Positions 9,601 to 15,551 of a DNA stretch of 21,249 nt are shown here, piece after piece. Origin of the DNA: a virus; IMG/VR virus record IMGVR_UViG_3300000228_000047, positions 1 to 21,249 of that record, one strand, 5' to 3'. The translations under genes were made by a program, and so were the position numbers. Within the stretch, counting starts at the first letter, position 1. Every line of letters begins with the position of its first letter. The notes under the pieces are model-generated. The model was not told the origin of the DNA. It ran no database searches and was given only the letters and a program-made list of their open reading frames with translations.

Positions 9601-10870
9601 CATCTTGTTTGGTGAAGTTATCTCTTTTCTCGGCTTCAGCATCATCTAATGCTTGCGTATTTCTCTTTTGTTCTTGTTCAGTTAATTTAAGAAGTCTTCT
9701 CAACAGGTCACTGGCGTTTTGGTCTGATTCTTTTTTCAACCCATTAAACCCTAATAGCATGTCCTTTGTTCTTAAAAAGTTATCAGATACAACAGACTTT
9801 AATACGGAAGAAACCTTTTTGTCTGAAATATCAGAAAACTTTTTCATATATTTTTCAGTGTTGTCATTATTACTTTCTGTGATATTAACGATCTCTTTAA
9901 ATATTTCTTCTGTTTTTTCAAATTGCTTTATGTATTCTTCAGACCCTTCCCCGTATTGTTCTTTTAGCTGGTTTAATAAAATGATTTGTTTCTTACTAAC
10001 CTCAGTTAAATCACCGCCATGCTTGTCAATAAAGTCTTCTAACCTTTCTTGTTGCATAAATGTGTGTTCTTTCATAGAAGACAACATTGACTCAGTTATA
10101 CCTGAAAGGTCACCACCCAATCTTTCCACCAATTCAGTTAGCATTTTTTCGTATTCAGTTTTTGATGACTCAGACTTACCAAGTACCGCGATAGCTTGAT
10201 CTCTTAGTGCGTCCTGAAATGCCTCAGTTTCTTTTCTTCTCGCTTTGGTGTTAATGTGTAAGTTTATTTTTAAATCTTTATGGATATTATCAACAATCTC
10301 ATCGAGCCCAGAATTAAATGAATCTGAAAGTCTATTAAGATTCCCTTTAAAAAAACCAGCGTTTTTCTTTTCTTCTGCTATTTTTTTATCATTAAATTCT
10401 TTTTGCGTTTTCTTTCTTTCTAACTCTCTCTTGATATTTCTTTTTGCTTCAAGTTTTTCCCTGTCGTTATCGTTCGCAATACTGTCTTCGATTACTTCAG
10501 TCATTTCTTCGAAAACCTTTAGTTGGGTTTTCCTGTATTCTTTTTCAGCGTTATCTCGCATTTCTTGTTTTTTATCAGCTTGGGCTTTTTCTTTCTTACC
10601 ATTTTTATTGGCGTTTTCAGCGTTCTTTTTGAAGAACGCTTGTAATGACTCTACACCAGAAGCTACGGATGCCATTAAGAAATTTGTCTGTGAACCCCTC
10701 TTACCAGCAATAAAAAGAGTCGGTTTTGTTGATTTTACTGGTCTCGCTGATTCTCTTTCGTCATTCTTTTTATTGAAACCGAAATCTCTTTCTTGGGTTT
10801 TATTAGCTTCTTTATTATACTTTAATAATTTTTCTAAAAGTTTTTCTACATTAGTTTTGTCTTCAGCCAT
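6638..10870 (-). CDS. Tail tape measure protein with phage-tail lysozyme and M15 peptidase domains
   Basis: This 1410-aa protein is by far the largest in the window, as expected for the protein that sets tail length. Residues 1-480 are highly charged coiled coil (many EKK/KEE repeats). Hydrophobic Gly/Ala-rich segments follow around 490-560 and 625-690, typical of tape measures. Residues about 878-1012 look like a phage-tail lysozyme (FFQSKGWTKEQSAGLVGNLA, then AYGIAQWHPDRQ). Residues about 1090-1165 match M15-type peptidases: SAYRSP, SMHMEGKAVDIAW (H1121, D1128) and FIHVDIG (H1162), the expected zinc ligands. The C-terminus is Ser/Gly-rich with a hexapeptide repeat. The ATG overlaps the end of the gp51-like frame by 8 bases and has a GGAGG site six bases upstream. 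The protein would be ejected at infection, so both wall-cutting activities would arrive at the peptidoglycan with it. Confidence 0.9.
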   Translation of the reverse strand: MAEDKTNVEKLLEKLLKYNKEANKTQERDFGFNKKNDERESARPVKSTKPTLFIAGKRGSQTNFLMASVASGVESLQAFFKKNAENANKNGKKEKAQADKKQEMRDNAEKEYRKTQLKVFEEMTEVIEDSIANDNDREKLEAKRNIKRELERKKTQKEFNDKKIAEEKKNAGFFKGNLNRLSDSFNSGLDEIVDNIHKDLKINLHINTKARRKETEAFQDALRDQAIAVLGKSESSKTEYEKMLTELVERLGGDLSGITESMLSSMKEHTFMQQERLEDFIDKHGGDLTEVSKKQIILLNQLKEQYGEGSEEYIKQFEKTEEIFKEIVNITESNNDNTEKYMKKFSDISDKKVSSVLKSVVSDNFLRTKDMLLGFNGLKKESDQNASDLLRRLLKLTEQEQKRNTQALDDAEAEKRDNFTKQDDLEVAVVDVEESVDRVREAVEDLGDDLKESNNKKGDKKEESSGFFSTLLGAVGIKYFAKILSKLPLGKFGKYGTMLQGFLEKLGGLGFSGMAMGAMAGGGVMDGVVGGFFGDDSNKNSSHAQTSQGSSNNKPTKTQTAKPKGKIASLMSRIPGAGNASDIISKGSDFIKKGLEKTSGILSKTVGKSLLKKIPIVGALAGLGFGISRIMDGDFTGAALEIGGGLASTFPGVGTAVSVGADMALAAHDMNSSSVAPNTLPSPVSTPSVDSGTPKPSGKKGGLLSKIGGFASKAILPLGSLLTLPAIFDTLMPSSETSDPAPKLTEFNKVVTDKALVSGANPSSNTLQSSGTLQDLYRLQEQMAGGEGVPNTLGTEATQILILEELRSIRESRKIAEKQKVAEDLLDQTKEKSMWEKMKDSVSGIFGFGGDNPSGGGGFSGGGSVGGGGGSYGGPGLSETGESKEAMAFFQSKGWTKEQSAGLVGNLAVESKFKTDALGDGGKAYGIAQWHPDRQANFKKWAGKDIRESTFQEQLGFVNYELTQGSEKGAGDKLRQATTASGAAYTVDKSYERSSGAALGERTKTAQNFYGEAEMSGSMSGATPASGEQFAVMPAGGPLKTTMPAGGPMMAGGSSGGSSMNTANIESTGKYTGKSLEGLLSLTRSKLDKLSNMAGGGLHILSAYRSPAYNKSVHGAKQSMHMEGKAVDIAWKSKELQSKVSFIKMAKQAGFTGIGIYPGFIHVDIGKERAWGANGSSSTLPEWAKEAIGDTSALADGSASQSPMNEAELPAKSVGNSVGGGGGSYGSMPSTQSSFASSSQMRPSGIGGLGSFGSPGSFGSPGSLGSPGSLGSPGSFGSPGSFGSPGSLGGLSGNSGGEIQQTVGKAMAGVNFNGVLGRPSSSSTNGYSMSQVLGNMNSLPFGGALGQIASGQKNFNSSLLSANTSAASGISQLPSMIGSIGSSGGGSSSPVTASVSDSSLDILRGLLAGR
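7011..7124. repeat. 18-bp tandem repeat in the tape measure gene
   Basis: There are six full copies of an 18-bp unit (7011-7118) plus a partial seventh. On the coding strand they encode repeats of GSFGSP or GSLGSP (about residues 1250-1288). Copies differ only at the base that switches Phe and Leu. The unit length is a multiple of three, so copy-number changes keep the frame. Confidence 0.9.
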
Positions 10871-11102
10871 TATAAGCCTCCATTTCTTGTTCTAAATATT
10901 TGAACAACTGTTTTTCTATGTACACAACATCCAAGAACTCCATTTCGTGAAGGGTACTAGGGCTTATGTGCATTTTGTATGCCAAAATTGATTCTTTTTC
11001 TAAGAGAGTCTTTGGATTTATCTGTGGAACCAATGTACTCAATGATGTCTGGAAAGGGTATGTCGTGTAAACGACCGCAAACCTCCCCGTCTGGTTTATC
11101 AC
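10863..11102 (-). CDS. gp51-like tail assembly frame, probably expressed by +1 frameshift from the gp26-like gene
   Basis: This frame is open from just after a TAA at 11112-11114 to the TGA at 10863, overlapping the gp26-like gene for about 146 bases. If read alone from GTG at 11102 it gives 79 residues, but no ribosome binding site precedes that GTG. The C-terminal half (LLEKESILAYKMHISPSTL, then HEMEFLDVVYIEKQLFKYLE) reads like a compact helical chaperone domain. It stands where T4 has gene 51, directly after gene 26 and before the tape measure. The frame is +1 (or -2) relative to gp26. Candidate slip sites are CTT-AGA (10999-11004) and CCC-TAG (10957-10962). The upstream 30 or so codons may not be translated in this frame. 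That the frame is real is likely; the way it is expressed is inferred. Confidence 0.6.
   Translation of the reverse strand: MINQTGRFAVVYTTYPFQTSLSTLVPQINPKTLLEKESILAYKMHISPSTLHEMEFLDVVYIEKQLFKYLEQEMEAYNG
10957..10962 (-). other. Candidate +1 frameshift site CCC-TAG
   Basis: The last sense codon and stop of the gp26-like gene read CCC TAG. A proline tRNA slipping one base forward onto CCT would continue in the overlapping frame (AGT ACC CTT...). It would add 31 residues and stop inside the start of the tape measure gene, giving a 337-aa product. CCC followed by a stop codon is a known type of +1 site, reported for structural genes of Listeria phage PSA. An alternative site, CTT AGA, lies at 10999-11004. 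Confidence 0.45.
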
Positions 11103-11877
11103 CTGACTTGTTTATTCTTGCGGAGCACGAAAACCTTAGGTCTTGTACGCCATGGAACAAAGAAACATCAATGGTTTCAAGTAAATTAACATTCAAACCA
11201 TTCAATACCTCTTTGATTATAGTCAATCTATCCTTTTCAGAACCACCAATAATACAATTTGACATATATACATCTAAATCTTCCCTATTACCATCAAATA
11301 TCATTTTTTTAAATCGACCTATAGTCATAGGGGTGAAACTGACTTCAGATGTTTCTTCACCATTCTCGTAAAGGAACGGGGATTCTAAATCAACTGTAAT
11401 AGGTAACGGGACAGAAATCTCTTCAAATAACAAATCATCTAAGCTGAAAGGTTCTTTATTTAGCGCACCGCAACTACTACATTCATAACTCATCGTATAT
11501 TCTAGAGTACCGAATGTTGATAACTTAACCATTGTTGTTATATAATAGAAATCAAAATAGGTGAGGTCTTCTTTATCGAAACTTGTATGTATTTTTGTGA
11601 GAAAAAAATCTATTGTTTCTGTGTCAGCTAATGTACTCACTGCTAAAAATTTCATTTCACCAAATGTTAGTGGTGAAAAATATACCACCGATTCACTAGG
11701 ATAAGAAACTCCACCAGATGGTAAATCTATTATGTTAAGTTGGTTTACAGAAGTTGGTCTTTTTGTCGGGATTGCTTTCTGTTTCTCCTCTTCAACCATT
11801 TTGACATTATTCTCTTCAGCGTACCTTTTTGCTTCTAGGCTTTCAGCATAGGTAACTGGTCTCATTCGTTTTTCCAT
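10957..11877 (-). CDS. Tail/baseplate assembly protein, T4 gp26-like, with zinc-ribbon-type cysteines
   Basis: This 306-aa protein resembles the T4 gp26 base-plate protein family: LNIIDLPSGGVSYP (48-60), then VVYFSPLTFGEMKFLA (64-79), and a helical 'DFFLTKIH' region. Two cysteine pairs, C133-x-x-C136 and C251...C267, could form a zinc ribbon, and the first pair sits in the usual 'Y.C..CG' context. T4 gp26 (208 aa) is shorter, so this version has an extended N-terminus rich in Glu and Lys. The gene lies between the tube and tape measure genes, where tail assembly chaperones belong, and its 3' end is overlapped in +1 by the gp51-like frame. A zinc-binding assembly factor that handles the tape measure or hub is inferred. 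The AAGGGG ribosome binding site seven bases before the ATG can pair with an upstream C-rich segment. Confidence 0.75.
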   Translation of the reverse strand: MEKRMRPVTYAESLEAKRYAEENNVKMVEEEKQKAIPTKRPTSVNQLNIIDLPSGGVSYPSESVVYFSPLTFGEMKFLAVSTLADTETIDFFLTKIHTSFDKEDLTYFDFYYITTMVKLSTFGTLEYTMSYECSSCGALNKEPFSLDDLLFEEISVPLPITVDLESPFLYENGEETSEVSFTPMTIGRFKKMIFDGNREDLDVYMSNCIIGGSEKDRLTIIKEVLNGLNVNLLETIDVSLFHGVQDLRFSCSARINKSGDKPDGEVCGRLHDIPFPDIIEYIGSTDKSKDSLRKRINFGIQNAHKP

Positions 11878-11951: not shown

Positions 11952-12536
11952 TCAGAAGAAAGAAGGTACTTTTACTGGATTCAAATAATTTAAGTTAGTA
12001 GTATCAGCAGAAAACCTGTTATCTTTTTCGTTGGTGTCTAAATTCACCCATTGAAGAGACCCAGCCACAACTGAAAAGGTCACTTGATAGTTCGGTACTG
12101 ACCCATCTGTATCACCATTGTATATAATGTTTCCGGAAGGTATGACTTTACCTATCCATTTATATACCGACTTCCCAGTCGACTTTAATTTATGTACGGT
12201 AAATTTCTTCGATGCGTCTTCAACAAGAGCAACTTCATAACCATCTTGTGATACACACGACGCCATCCACTCTGTAATAAACCTTGTTACTTTTAAGTCT
12301 TCGCTATCGACATAAGAAATAGTTAAAGTCGGTAAAGTTCTTCCTGATATATATTCAATATTTGAAGAACCGAGGGATTCATTCGTTACCCCAAAGAAAC
12401 CAAGTTCTAATGTAGTTGCTGAAGTGAACCCACCAAATAGGTTTTCTAAACCATCTAATTCAAACTCCCACTTATTACTCGCGTCCCATTGGATAGAACG
12501 CATTCTATGTAAAGTAATTTTTTGAAACGATGCCAT
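11952..12536 (-). CDS. Tail tube-like protein (second copy)
   Basis: This 194-aa protein has the tube-fold signature of the gp19 family: an N-terminal KWEFELDGLENLFGGF strand-turn, LELGFFGVTNESL, a TLPTLTISYVDSEDL strand followed by the helix VTRFITEWMAS, and a final strand hairpin (NYQVTFSVVAGSLQWVN). It directly follows another tube-like gene of almost the same length but clearly different sequence. One of the two probably builds the tube and the other a specialised ring (tube end or tube-baseplate interface), or both enter the tube. The ATG at 12536 has an AAGGA site and is preceded by the hairpin region at 12554-12616. Tube-fold assignment is fairly sure; which paralogue is the major subunit cannot be told from the sequence. 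Confidence 0.7.
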   Translation of the reverse strand: MASFQKITLHRMRSIQWDASNKWEFELDGLENLFGGFTSATTLELGFFGVTNESLGSSNIEYISGRTLPTLTISYVDSEDLKVTRFITEWMASCVSQDGYEVALVEDASKKFTVHKLKSTGKSVYKWIGKVIPSGNIIYNGDTDGSVPNYQVTFSVVAGSLQWVNLDTNEKDNRFSADTTNLNYLNPVKVPSFF

Positions 12537-13226: not shown

Positions 13227-15551
13227 TTATGAAAAACTTACAGTACCGTTATTGATAACAGTTGTAAAGTTTATGTATTCAATTGAATAAACTGGTTTGA
13301 CATAAATATCAACATTCAATATGTTATTAACGGTATCTTGTGGTGAGTTATTGGTGTCATCACAAACCACAGAGAAAGCTGAAATACCGTTTCTTGCGTG
13401 AATTCCAGTCAAGTACCCGTTTATAGTTCCTTCAACAGAAGCTCTCACATCGGTCGTGTTCAATTCGAATAAATATCTTTCTAAGAAAGTTGAAATCTCT
13501 GGCTTAATTTTATTCAAAAGAAGTCTTACATTCATTCTATCTACTGCGGTAGCCACATAAGTCAATGTATGTTGACCCCAAATAGCCACGCCTTTACCTG
13601 GAGAAAATCTAATAGGGTTAATACCGTTATCAGAAAGAACATCTAAGTCCCCGTCAGTAAATTTAACTTGTACATCATTAACAAACAGTCTTCCTCTATT
13701 GAAGCCTGCTGCTGGGTACCAAATTTCATATTCAGAAGCGGAAATACTAATTGCTGCTGCTGCAAACCCGTCTGGGGCAATGAATATTTCTCTGTTGTTG
13801 TATTTATCGGTAATTTTGATATGTGATGTATATAGAGCAGCATATGATGAATTGATATTCAAATCTGTTGTTCTGTAATTAACTATATCAGATAAATATG
13901 TGACTGGGTTCAACCCAAGTTCAAATGGAACAGTTAGGACTGCTATTGAATCATCTCTTTCCTCACAAATTTGAGAAATTTTGTTTTGGTACGGTGATGA
14001 AGACCAACCACCATCTAAAAACACTGTCAACGGATAATTGTTCTTGTTAGCCATTAAGCTTGCTGATACAATCATATCAGAGTCAGTTACCGCGCCACCA
14101 TCATTACCGCCGACAAATCTAATTAAAGATCCAGTTCTAAGAACTTCTTTTGGTAATACATCTGCTGGTATAGCTTGGTTAGAAATAGCATTAATATAAT
14201 TCGAACCAGTTAATACAGTTTCGATGTATATATTTCTTCCAAATCCATCTCTTGCGTCTATGTCTCTTGAACAAATGAATGATTCTCTAGGTTTCACAAG
14301 GTTTGAAGTAGAAAAAACATTCACCGTGAATGTTCCAGGCAGTTTCTGGTTTTGCGTCACAATTTCTACTCTGATGTCTTTAGACCAATTTCCCTCATTA
14401 ACAGAGTATAATAAAATACAATCATCAACGGAGAATGGTAATGGAGAAGCGTCAGTGAATCCTAGTGCTACGGCATCTGTTTCTGGTGCTGACGCTGGTG
14501 CTGTATCTACCAATGCTGGGTTATTGAAAAAAGTGTCTAAAGTAACAGAAACACCAGTCGCGCTTGATATAGTCGCACTTGATACTGAAGAAGTACCGTT
14601 AGTCATCGAAGCAGACACTTGTAAAATCTTACCAGTAACAGATGTAGTCGCGATATATGTTGGAAATATATCTGAAACTTGAATGGTACCAGTCCCGTCC
14701 GCTACGCCACTTACATTCATCGTAATTAATGGATTTCCTCTATACCCAGTACCAGTAGTCATAGTTGGGAGAGCAGAAGATAGTGTAGCGGTTGTACCTG
14801 TCGCGCTCAAGACTGTTCTAGTATAAGACACACCTGAAACTATAAAAGATAAAGTACTACCAACAAAATCAGCCAATGCTATCACAGACGAGCCTACGCC
14901 GTCAACTATGTTTGTTATATTATAAGTAGCACCAGAAACAAAAGAAACGTCAAATGTAGCATAATCACTTGATTTCACGATTGAAGCAGTACCTGTTCCC
15001 GTGAATGATATAGCTGAATCAATTGAAGTCGTTAAAGTAGCAACGCTTCCAGTAACTGAAGAAACTACAAAAGAACCTTGACCGACAGACGGGATGTTTA
15101 TAGATCTACCAACCAAATCAGTCGAAACACCACCAGTCAATGAAGAAATAGTTATTTCATTTGAGCCATCTACAATATTACTAGCAGTAAATACTATTGC
15201 TTTTTTCGATGGGGCAGTTTCATTAACTTGAACATACGGTGTAAGAGAAGCGGAACCAACTTTTTTTACGAAAGCACCTCCATTGAGAGCACCATTCGCT
15301 GTTCTAATGACCCACATAGTTCGTGTTTTTTCAAGTGCGGTGAGTGCACTGTAGTATGCTAAATTGTAACCGACTTTTATTGTATTATCTGGGGTGAATT
15401 TATTCAAAAGATCATTTTCACTCGTAACTAAAACTGGGACATTAATCGGACCTTTTTTAGCTGGGATAACGATAGCATTATAAACGCCTGTTTGTCCGCC
15501 TATTTTTTGAACAAGATTTTGTTCATAAGTTTTTACGCTTGCTGCTGGCAT
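13227..15551 (-). CDS. Tail sheath protein, gp18-like, with large surface insertion
   Basis: This 774-aa protein is the contractile sheath subunit. The N-terminus (KIGGQTGVYNAIVIPAKKGP, then VTSENDLLNKFTP) and the C-terminal third are canonical: GKGVAIWGQHTLTYVATAVDRMN-type segment (about 650-675), LNKIKPEISTFLERYLFELN, VEGTINGYL, VVCDDTNNS and a final VDIYVKPVYSIEYINF strand region that joins neighbouring subunits. Between about residues 105 and 365 lies a Ser/Thr/Val/Gly-rich insertion with repeated strand patterns (VVSSVTGSVATLTTSI, TRTVLSATGTTATLSSALP), probably an Ig-like or related beta-sandwich exposed on the sheath surface. T4 gp18 is 659 aa and also has a protruding insertion. A GAAGGAGAG ribosome binding site precedes the ATG, just after the stop of the 50-aa gene. 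Confidence 0.92.
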   Translation of the reverse strand: MPAASVKTYEQNLVQKIGGQTGVYNAIVIPAKKGPINVPVLVTSENDLLNKFTPDNTIKVGYNLAYYSALTALEKTRTMWVIRTANGALNGGAFVKKVGSASLTPYVQVNETAPSKKAIVFTASNIVDGSNEITISSLTGGVSTDLVGRSINIPSVGQGSFVVSSVTGSVATLTTSIDSAISFTGTGTASIVKSSDYATFDVSFVSGATYNITNIVDGVGSSVIALADFVGSTLSFIVSGVSYTRTVLSATGTTATLSSALPTMTTGTGYRGNPLITMNVSGVADGTGTIQVSDIFPTYIATTSVTGKILQVSASMTNGTSSVSSATISSATGVSVTLDTFFNNPALVDTAPASAPETDAVALGFTDASPLPFSVDDCILLYSVNEGNWSKDIRVEIVTQNQKLPGTFTVNVFSTSNLVKPRESFICSRDIDARDGFGRNIYIETVLTGSNYINAISNQAIPADVLPKEVLRTGSLIRFVGGNDGGAVTDSDMIVSASLMANKNNYPLTVFLDGGWSSSPYQNKISQICEERDDSIAVLTVPFELGLNPVTYLSDIVNYRTTDLNINSSYAALYTSHIKITDKYNNREIFIAPDGFAAAAISISASEYEIWYPAAGFNRGRLFVNDVQVKFTDGDLDVLSDNGINPIRFSPGKGVAIWGQHTLTYVATAVDRMNVRLLLNKIKPEISTFLERYLFELNTTDVRASVEGTINGYLTGIHARNGISAFSVVCDDTNNSPQDTVNNILNVDIYVKPVYSIEYINFTTVINNGTVSFS

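Follow-up and report, generated by a model that had tools for sequence, protein, structure and literature searches.

We analyzed a 21,249-nucleotide stretch of DNA from a T4-related phage (IMG/VR record IMGVR_UViG_3300000228_000047, positions 1 to 21,249; hereafter the window), in which a gene related to gene 26 of phage T4 is overlapped at its 3' end by a second reading frame directly ahead of the tape-measure gene. It is very probable, in our judgment, that a programmed +1 slip at CCC-UUU-C joins the two frames and so gives rise to a short and a long tail assembly chaperone encoded just before the tape measure. Comparison with related loci indicates that the second frame is translated, and it also places the point at which ribosomes would enter that frame. 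All window coordinates given below refer to the minus strand.

A conserved +1 frame overlapping the gp26-like gene

The gp26-like open reading frame (ORF; 11877 to 10957) encodes 306 amino acids and would specify the unshifted, short product. The protein matched PF12322 (T4_baseplate) with an E value of 3e-8 and 34.1 bits, which is above the curated cut-off of 24.5 and places it within that family, and it matched phrog_150, annotated as "baseplate hub," with an E value of 7e-8. A fold search of BFVD returned baseplate hub proteins of many myoviruses, with E values down to 1.5e-12, and the gp26 family was the sole family in this viral library that the modelled short form matched. The same model (predicted local distance difference test score, 73) had no match to any solved structure in PDB.

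The second frame runs from stop to stop between 11111 and 10863 (82 codons plus TGA), as read from the ORF lists and from the frames themselves. It lies in the +1 phase, overlaps the gp26-like ORF by 155 nucleotides, and ends within the start of the tape-measure ORF, whose ATG is at 10870. The -1 frame is closed at this locus, with only 15 codons open over the gp26 stop. GTG at 11102 is the only start codon near the beginning of the +1 ORF, and it has no appreciable Shine-Dalgarno (SD) pairing (-0.7 kcal/mol). A preliminary description of this DNA had reported the overlapping +1 frame, the closed -1 frame, the end inside the tape-measure start, and the want of a ribosome binding site for the overlapping frame, and each of these was borne out. 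Across the related loci, no start codon for the +1 ORF was conserved.

The +1 frame was followed in a group of 22 loci, here called the +1 group. Nine are from IMG/VR, consisting of one near-copy of the window (L001, identical over the stretch compared) and eight loci at 42 to 65% identity, and 13 are from named phages (about nine lineages) found by tblastn at roughly 22 to 30% identity. The named phages are Rhizobium phage RHph_TM39; Vibrio phages GR7B, GR11A, 1.031, 150E35-1, and Va2; E. coli phages IME392 and EP_H11; Acinetobacter phage Ab1-TPeters; Thermus phage phiLo; and Pseudomonas putida phages Aura, Voja-6, and Peetri. In every one of the 22 loci the +1 frame was open over the gp26 stop while the -1 frame was closed or open for just a short stretch, and in nearly all of them the +1 frame reached the tape-measure start or came close to it. 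The exceptions were phiLo, in which the next ORF was not identified as a tape measure, and GR11A (L033:3946-4449), in which, unlike most relatives, one additional ORF separates the +1 frame from the next large gene.

A profile built from the +1 peptides of the distant phages alone recovered seven of the nine window-group peptides, with E values from 4e-9 to 0.007, all of them better than the best unrelated decoy or shuffle in the same search (E = 0.012). This recovery, together with the openness of the frame in 22 loci, indicates on comparative grounds that the +1 frame is genuinely coding and encodes a conserved domain. Scanning IMG/VR with profiles of the distant groups yielded no further homologues, nor did a search of bacterial genomes.

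Entry into the +1 frame

The window reads CCC-UUU-CCA at 11058 to 11050, and the site CCC-UUU-C (11058 to 11052), which sits 32 codons before the gp26 stop, contains the sole in-frame TTT-Y of the overlap. An in-frame CC[CG]TTT[CT] was present in 21 of the 22 loci; its TTT codon was invariant in the nine-locus alignment, and its TTT-Y was the only one in frame within the overlap in nearly all loci. The site was localized by combining the positions at which the +1 frame opens with the change in coding phase. In five loci (L009, TM39, GR11A, phiLo, and Va2), the frame opens just 0 to 3 codons before TTT-Y. In the gp26 frame, the codon position that changes fastest among the five closest homologues is the third upstream and the first within the overlap, the differences at positions 1, 2, and 3 being.30,.21, and.54 upstream and.30,.11, and.16 within it. 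Synonymous differences per codon went from.32 upstream to.08 in the overlap for frame 0 and from.06 to.22 for the +1 frame. A phase change placed at the gp26 stop fit far worse than one placed upstream (-7.4 and -11.3 log units). As shown by these comparisons, entry into the +1 frame would lie at or very near UUU-C.

The codons of the site are retained even where they are otherwise rare: in the window locus only 2 of the 78 proline codons are CCC, and in the P. putida phages only 6 to 9% of the phenylalanine codons are TTT, yet CC[CG]TTT[CT] is kept. In several loci CCG takes the place of CCC, and Va2 has no proline codon here, which leaves UUU-Y as the common part of the site and suggests a slip of Phe-tRNA from UUU to UUC.

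A -2 move at the same place would enter the identical frame and is indistinguishable from a +1 move by frame alone, although the junction would differ, the +1 move giving IPFQT and the -2 move one residue more. We consider the -2 move very unlikely. From UUU in CCCUUUC it would re-pair Phe-tRNA with CCU, whereas the +1 move would re-pair it with UUC, its better codon, and the +1 move requires only UUU-Y, which is the invariant part of the site.

Two other positions had been put forward in the preliminary description for the +1 shift: CCC-TAG at the gp26 stop (10962 to 10957) and CTT-AGA (11004 to 10999). Both are located as described, and a +1 shift at CCC followed by a stop codon is known from Listeria phage PSA (PMC5009743). 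The homologue alignment that the description had proposed as a check confirmed that the overlap is conserved but not that these codons are. Only the window and its near-copy L001 have CCC ahead of the stop, the gp26 stop itself falls at different codons in the homologues with the phase change far upstream of it, and four of the nine aligned loci carry ATT-AGA, GTT-AGA, or CTC-GGA where the window has CTT-AGA. With constraint on the +1 frame beginning long before either position, a shift at one of them is scarcely credible.

Upstream signals and a model of the proposed slip

An SD-like stretch, GGGGAGG, lies upstream of the slip site at 11088 to 11082. Its predicted pairing with the anti-SD sequence (-11.7 kcal/mol) ranks at the 1.1 percentile of coding positions in the locus. 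An SD-like stretch precedes every site in the +1 group and is among the best 0.4 to 8% of coding positions within its own locus (combined Fisher p = 4e-12 for 13 representative loci; the combined p values reported here assume independent loci, an assumption that related phages do not fully satisfy). Since the residues encoded at this stretch differ among lineages, selection acts on the RNA, and the comparison shows the SD-like stretch to be selected.

This SD-like stretch could also serve a separate small gene in the +1 frame, begun internally from it or through coupling to gp26, with no fusion protein made. The strength of the SD speaks for such a gene, as do a GTG found 6 to 8 codons before the site in L002, L003, L005, L006, and L008 and, in the P. 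putida phages, a TTG 4 codons ahead of the site, both in the +1 frame and near the SD; several annotators, moreover, record a small ORF at this position in relatives. We nevertheless regard a separate gene as quite improbable, because no +1-frame start codon stands behind the SD in the window or in about half of the loci, because TPeters and phiLo have no start until 19 and 42 codons past the site and the peptide preceding that start is conserved, and because the frame opens only at the site in TM39, phiLo, GR11A, and Va2. The programmed +1 extension of the gp26-like protein, as first suggested in the preliminary description, accords with both the switch in phase and the open frames in 22 of 22 loci.

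The database records of GR7B, IME392, TPeters, phiLo, Aura, and Va2 do not include the +1 frame. Most +1 frames are unannotated or entered as small hypothetical genes, and the putative full-length chaperone is therefore missing from the records.

Between the SD-like stretch and the slip site, a hairpin (GTCGT-TTAC-ACGAC, 11075 to 11062) is predicted by RNAfold at -5.1 kcal/mol. A hairpin was predicted at the same place in most relatives (combined p = 3e-5 for the 25 nucleotides that precede the site), with energies of -6.0 kcal/mol in TM39 and -16.9 kcal/mol in GR7B (z of -5.7 and -4.8, respectively).

As we infer the event, most ribosomes would complete frame 0 and produce the 306-residue protein, and in a minority the Phe-tRNA on UUU (11055 to 11053) would move forward one base to UUC (11054 to 11052). 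The slipped ribosomes would read the +1 frame to 10863 and thereby gain 62 residues (QTSLSTLVPQINPKTLLEKESILAYKMHISPSTLHEMEFLDVVYIEKQLFKYLEQEMEAYNG), encoded at about 11051 to 10863. The predicted frameshift product (11877 to 10863) is 337 amino acids long, with residues 1 to 275 from frame 0 and 276 to 337 from the +1 frame; it was derived by reading CCCT as one step, and reading UUUC as one step gives the identical protein. The predicted junction peptides are LHDIPFQTSLSTLVPQINPK if shifted and LHDIPFPDIIEYIGSTDK if unshifted for the window, and GVSQLAEPFVEMK if shifted and GVSQLAEPFR if unshifted for E. coli phage IME392. The upstream SD-like stretch, brought nearer by the hairpin, would probably stimulate the slip as in prfB, the gene of RF2. 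The part of the SD in this arrangement is well supported, and that of the hairpin, which would pull the SD into range by folding, is put forward as a hypothesis. We know of no previous description of a composite stimulator made up of an SD and a hairpin.

The proposed signal shares features with two known systems. Like prfB, it would combine a forward slip of the peptidyl-tRNA with an internal SD upstream; unlike prfB, it has a sense codon in the A site rather than a stop, and its SD lies 14 to 49 nucleotides before CCN, mostly with a hairpin between, instead of 3 nucleotides before it. UUU_CGN is the +1 site of influenza A PA-X and of amalgavirus. A slip at UUU-C resembles that of PA-X, and the exact sequence UUU-CGU is found at the site in 12 of the 13 named-phage loci (all but Va2). 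The window (UUU-CCA) and the nine-locus group carry UUU-C or UUU-U without CGN and thus fall outside the PA-X type of site. The proposed signal also differs from PA-X in its bacterial ribosome, in its SD-like stimulator, and in that CGU is not rare in most of these phages.

Several observations weigh against this account of the slip. Va2, the odd one of the 22 loci, has GTG-TTT-CCC at the site, and within the nine-locus set the phase change alone locates the site only broadly. CGU is a common arginine codon in most of these phages, so that slippage is not readily explained by a slow codon in the A site. Thermus phage phiLo, the P. putida phages, and GR11A have a weak hairpin or none, and among close homologues the stem drifts in register, for which reason we claim no covariation of the stem. 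The linear distance from SD to CCN exceeds the 3 nucleotides published as the optimum for +1 stimulation, the optimum for -1 being 9 to 14 nucleotides (PMC5009743). After folding, 1 to 16 unpaired nucleotides separate the two; the folded distances total 117, compared to 166 in shuffles (standard deviation, 23), which is only a moderate narrowing.

Putative chaperone pairs in the T4 superfamily

The short and long proteins would form a chaperone pair corresponding to lambda gpG/gpGT and to T4 gp26/gp51. Lambda makes a short chaperone, G, and a form extended by a -1 frameshift, GT, upstream of its tape-measure gene, and this frameshift is a textbook trait of long-tailed phages; Xu et al., in 2004, reportedly described a conserved set of such tail assembly chaperone frameshifts. 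The window shares with lambda a short protein and a putative frameshift-extended one just upstream of the tape measure, from two overlapping frames on the same strand that directly precede the tape-measure gene (likewise in most relatives), with no start of its own for the downstream frame. It differs from lambda in that the shift would be +1 at CC[CG]-UUU-Y and not -1 at a slippery heptamer and in that the N-terminal domain of its protein is PF12322. The equivalence of gp26/gp51 to G/GT asserted in the preliminary description therefore stands for the position of the pair just upstream of the tape measure and has to be amended for the shift itself, which would be +1, and for T4, whose pair appears to consist of duplicated forms.

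We infer the chaperone function from the T4 literature (PMC3004832) and from the position of the genes. The overlap and the shift could both be real and the proteins nonetheless be hub subunits, as they are annotated; a role as a hub component has been reported for T4 gp26, in a literature on the hub that is contradictory (PMC3004832). We hold this to be doubtful. The same review tables gp26 and gp51 as hub-assembly chaperones, with gp51 absent from the final particle (PMC3004832), the placement of a short and a long form immediately ahead of the tape measure is that of G/GT, and the annotators of phage Stupor name gp26 and gp51 tape-measure chaperones. Our search of a library of open-access papers found none on frameshifting in gp26/gp51. 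A tail chaperone frameshift in the halophilic archaeal myovirus HSTV-2 has been reported as very likely +1 (PMC5009743).

T4 gp26 and gp51 both belong to PF12322 (E values of 8.8e-64 and 3.9e-52). On phrog_150, which has 282 columns, T4 gp26 covers columns 14 to 235 and T4 gp51 covers columns 13 to 280, while cyanophage gp26 covers columns 5 to 232 and the short cyanophage "gp51" covers columns 241 to 278. T4 gp51 is therefore a gp26 domain plus a short extension of about 48 residues in one ORF (L032:7803-9229), the same order of domain and C-terminal extension as in the predicted frameshift product. The two T4 genes are indeed neighbours, as the preliminary description had it, but they are divergently transcribed from opposite strands and are paralogues that look like duplicated short and long forms, not two halves of one protein, whereas the window has one gene with a putative frameshift. 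The label "gp51-like" that was given to the +1 frame fits by position; however, there was no significant match to T4 gp51 or to the cyanophage "gp51." A hidden Markov model search of the window +1 domain against the T4 gp51 extension and phrog_634 gave no match, and hhalign of the +1 domain with the -1 set gave a probability of 4.7 and an E value of 0.008, which is not significant. Position, size, and a gp26 domain in common are the grounds for equating the +1 domain with the T4 and cyanophage extension; the two are not demonstrably homologous by sequence.

T4-like cyanophages and rhizobial phages (phrog_634) resemble the window in having a gp26 domain followed by a small overlapping frame, which in the cyanophages lies directly before the next tail gene; they differ from it in that their frame is -1 and in lying on the other side of the gp26 tree. 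The short -1-frame "gp51" peptides matched the C terminus of T4 gp51 (E = 2.5e-6). Four cyanophages, together with pf16, PhiW-14, OLIVR5, and RL38J1, carry the extension in the -1 frame after T-TTT-TT[C/T/G], an in-frame motif found one or two codons before the gp26 stop in 8 of the 12 loci sampled (L045:4670-4696 and the gp26 3' ends of L047, L048, L049, L050, L053, L054, and L043). A -1 frameshift is likely in these phages, judging from the motif. The -1 sites are preceded by a weak SD-like stretch (p = 0.005).

The maximum-likelihood gp26 tree has a branch, supported at 100/100, that separates the +1 group on one side from the -1 phages and T4 on the other; the tree is silent on which state is ancestral. 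A 2016 review described the G/GT frameshift as conserved in long-tailed phages "except T4" (PMC5009743). Our results suggest that T4 swapped the frameshift for gene duplication, genes 26 and 51 being the duplicated short and long forms. Within the T4 superfamily, +1 frameshifting, -1 frameshifting, and gene duplication appear to be in use as alternatives. That chaperone frameshifting is ancestral and general in this superfamily, with +1 shifts at CC[CG]-UUU-Y with SD and hairpin on one side, -1 shifts at U-UUU-UUC/G on the other, and the duplicated 26/51 of T4 as no true exception, is a proposition for and against which we find the chances evenly balanced. If T4 gp26 and gp51 are duplicated short and long forms, the exception of T4 to the G/GT rule vanishes, and the long-unclear function of the essential gp51 becomes testable as that of the T4 "GT." The +1 group would also supply a family of natural bacterial forward-slip signals (UUU-C with SD and hairpin), of which, to our knowledge, few examples have been described.

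Other arrangements were seen on the T4 and cyanophage side of the tree. Cygsa01, K469, ECML-4, and Kuja (L044, L051, L052, and L055) have gp51 in the -1 frame with no canonical heptamer, and Cygsa01 and K469, in which stop and start overlap as TAATG, may use coupling instead. Stenotrophomonas phage IME-SM1 (L056:2650-2900), on the same side, has an extension in the +1 frame, possibly reached by a slip at GAT-TTT-TCG, and is a possible independent case of +1 shifting. Synechococcus phage S-WAM1 (L048:2702-2893) and E. coli phage ECML-4 (L052:2813-2974) have no annotation for the gp51 frame.

The tape-measure gene of the window (10870 to 6638) has an SD of its own, GGAGG at 10881 to 10877, and encodes a protein of 1,410 amino acids that matched the tape-measure family phrog_9570 (E = 7e-33). 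Its Pfam matches were PF18013 and PF08291, with a phage lysozyme domain at residues 884 to 1010 and an M15 peptidase domain at residues 1084 to 1164. No Rfam matches and no tRNAs were found in the window. Two consecutive tube-like genes, at 12536 to 11952 and 13207 to 12620, each matched phrog_45 and are placed downstream of a large ORF at 15551 to 13227.

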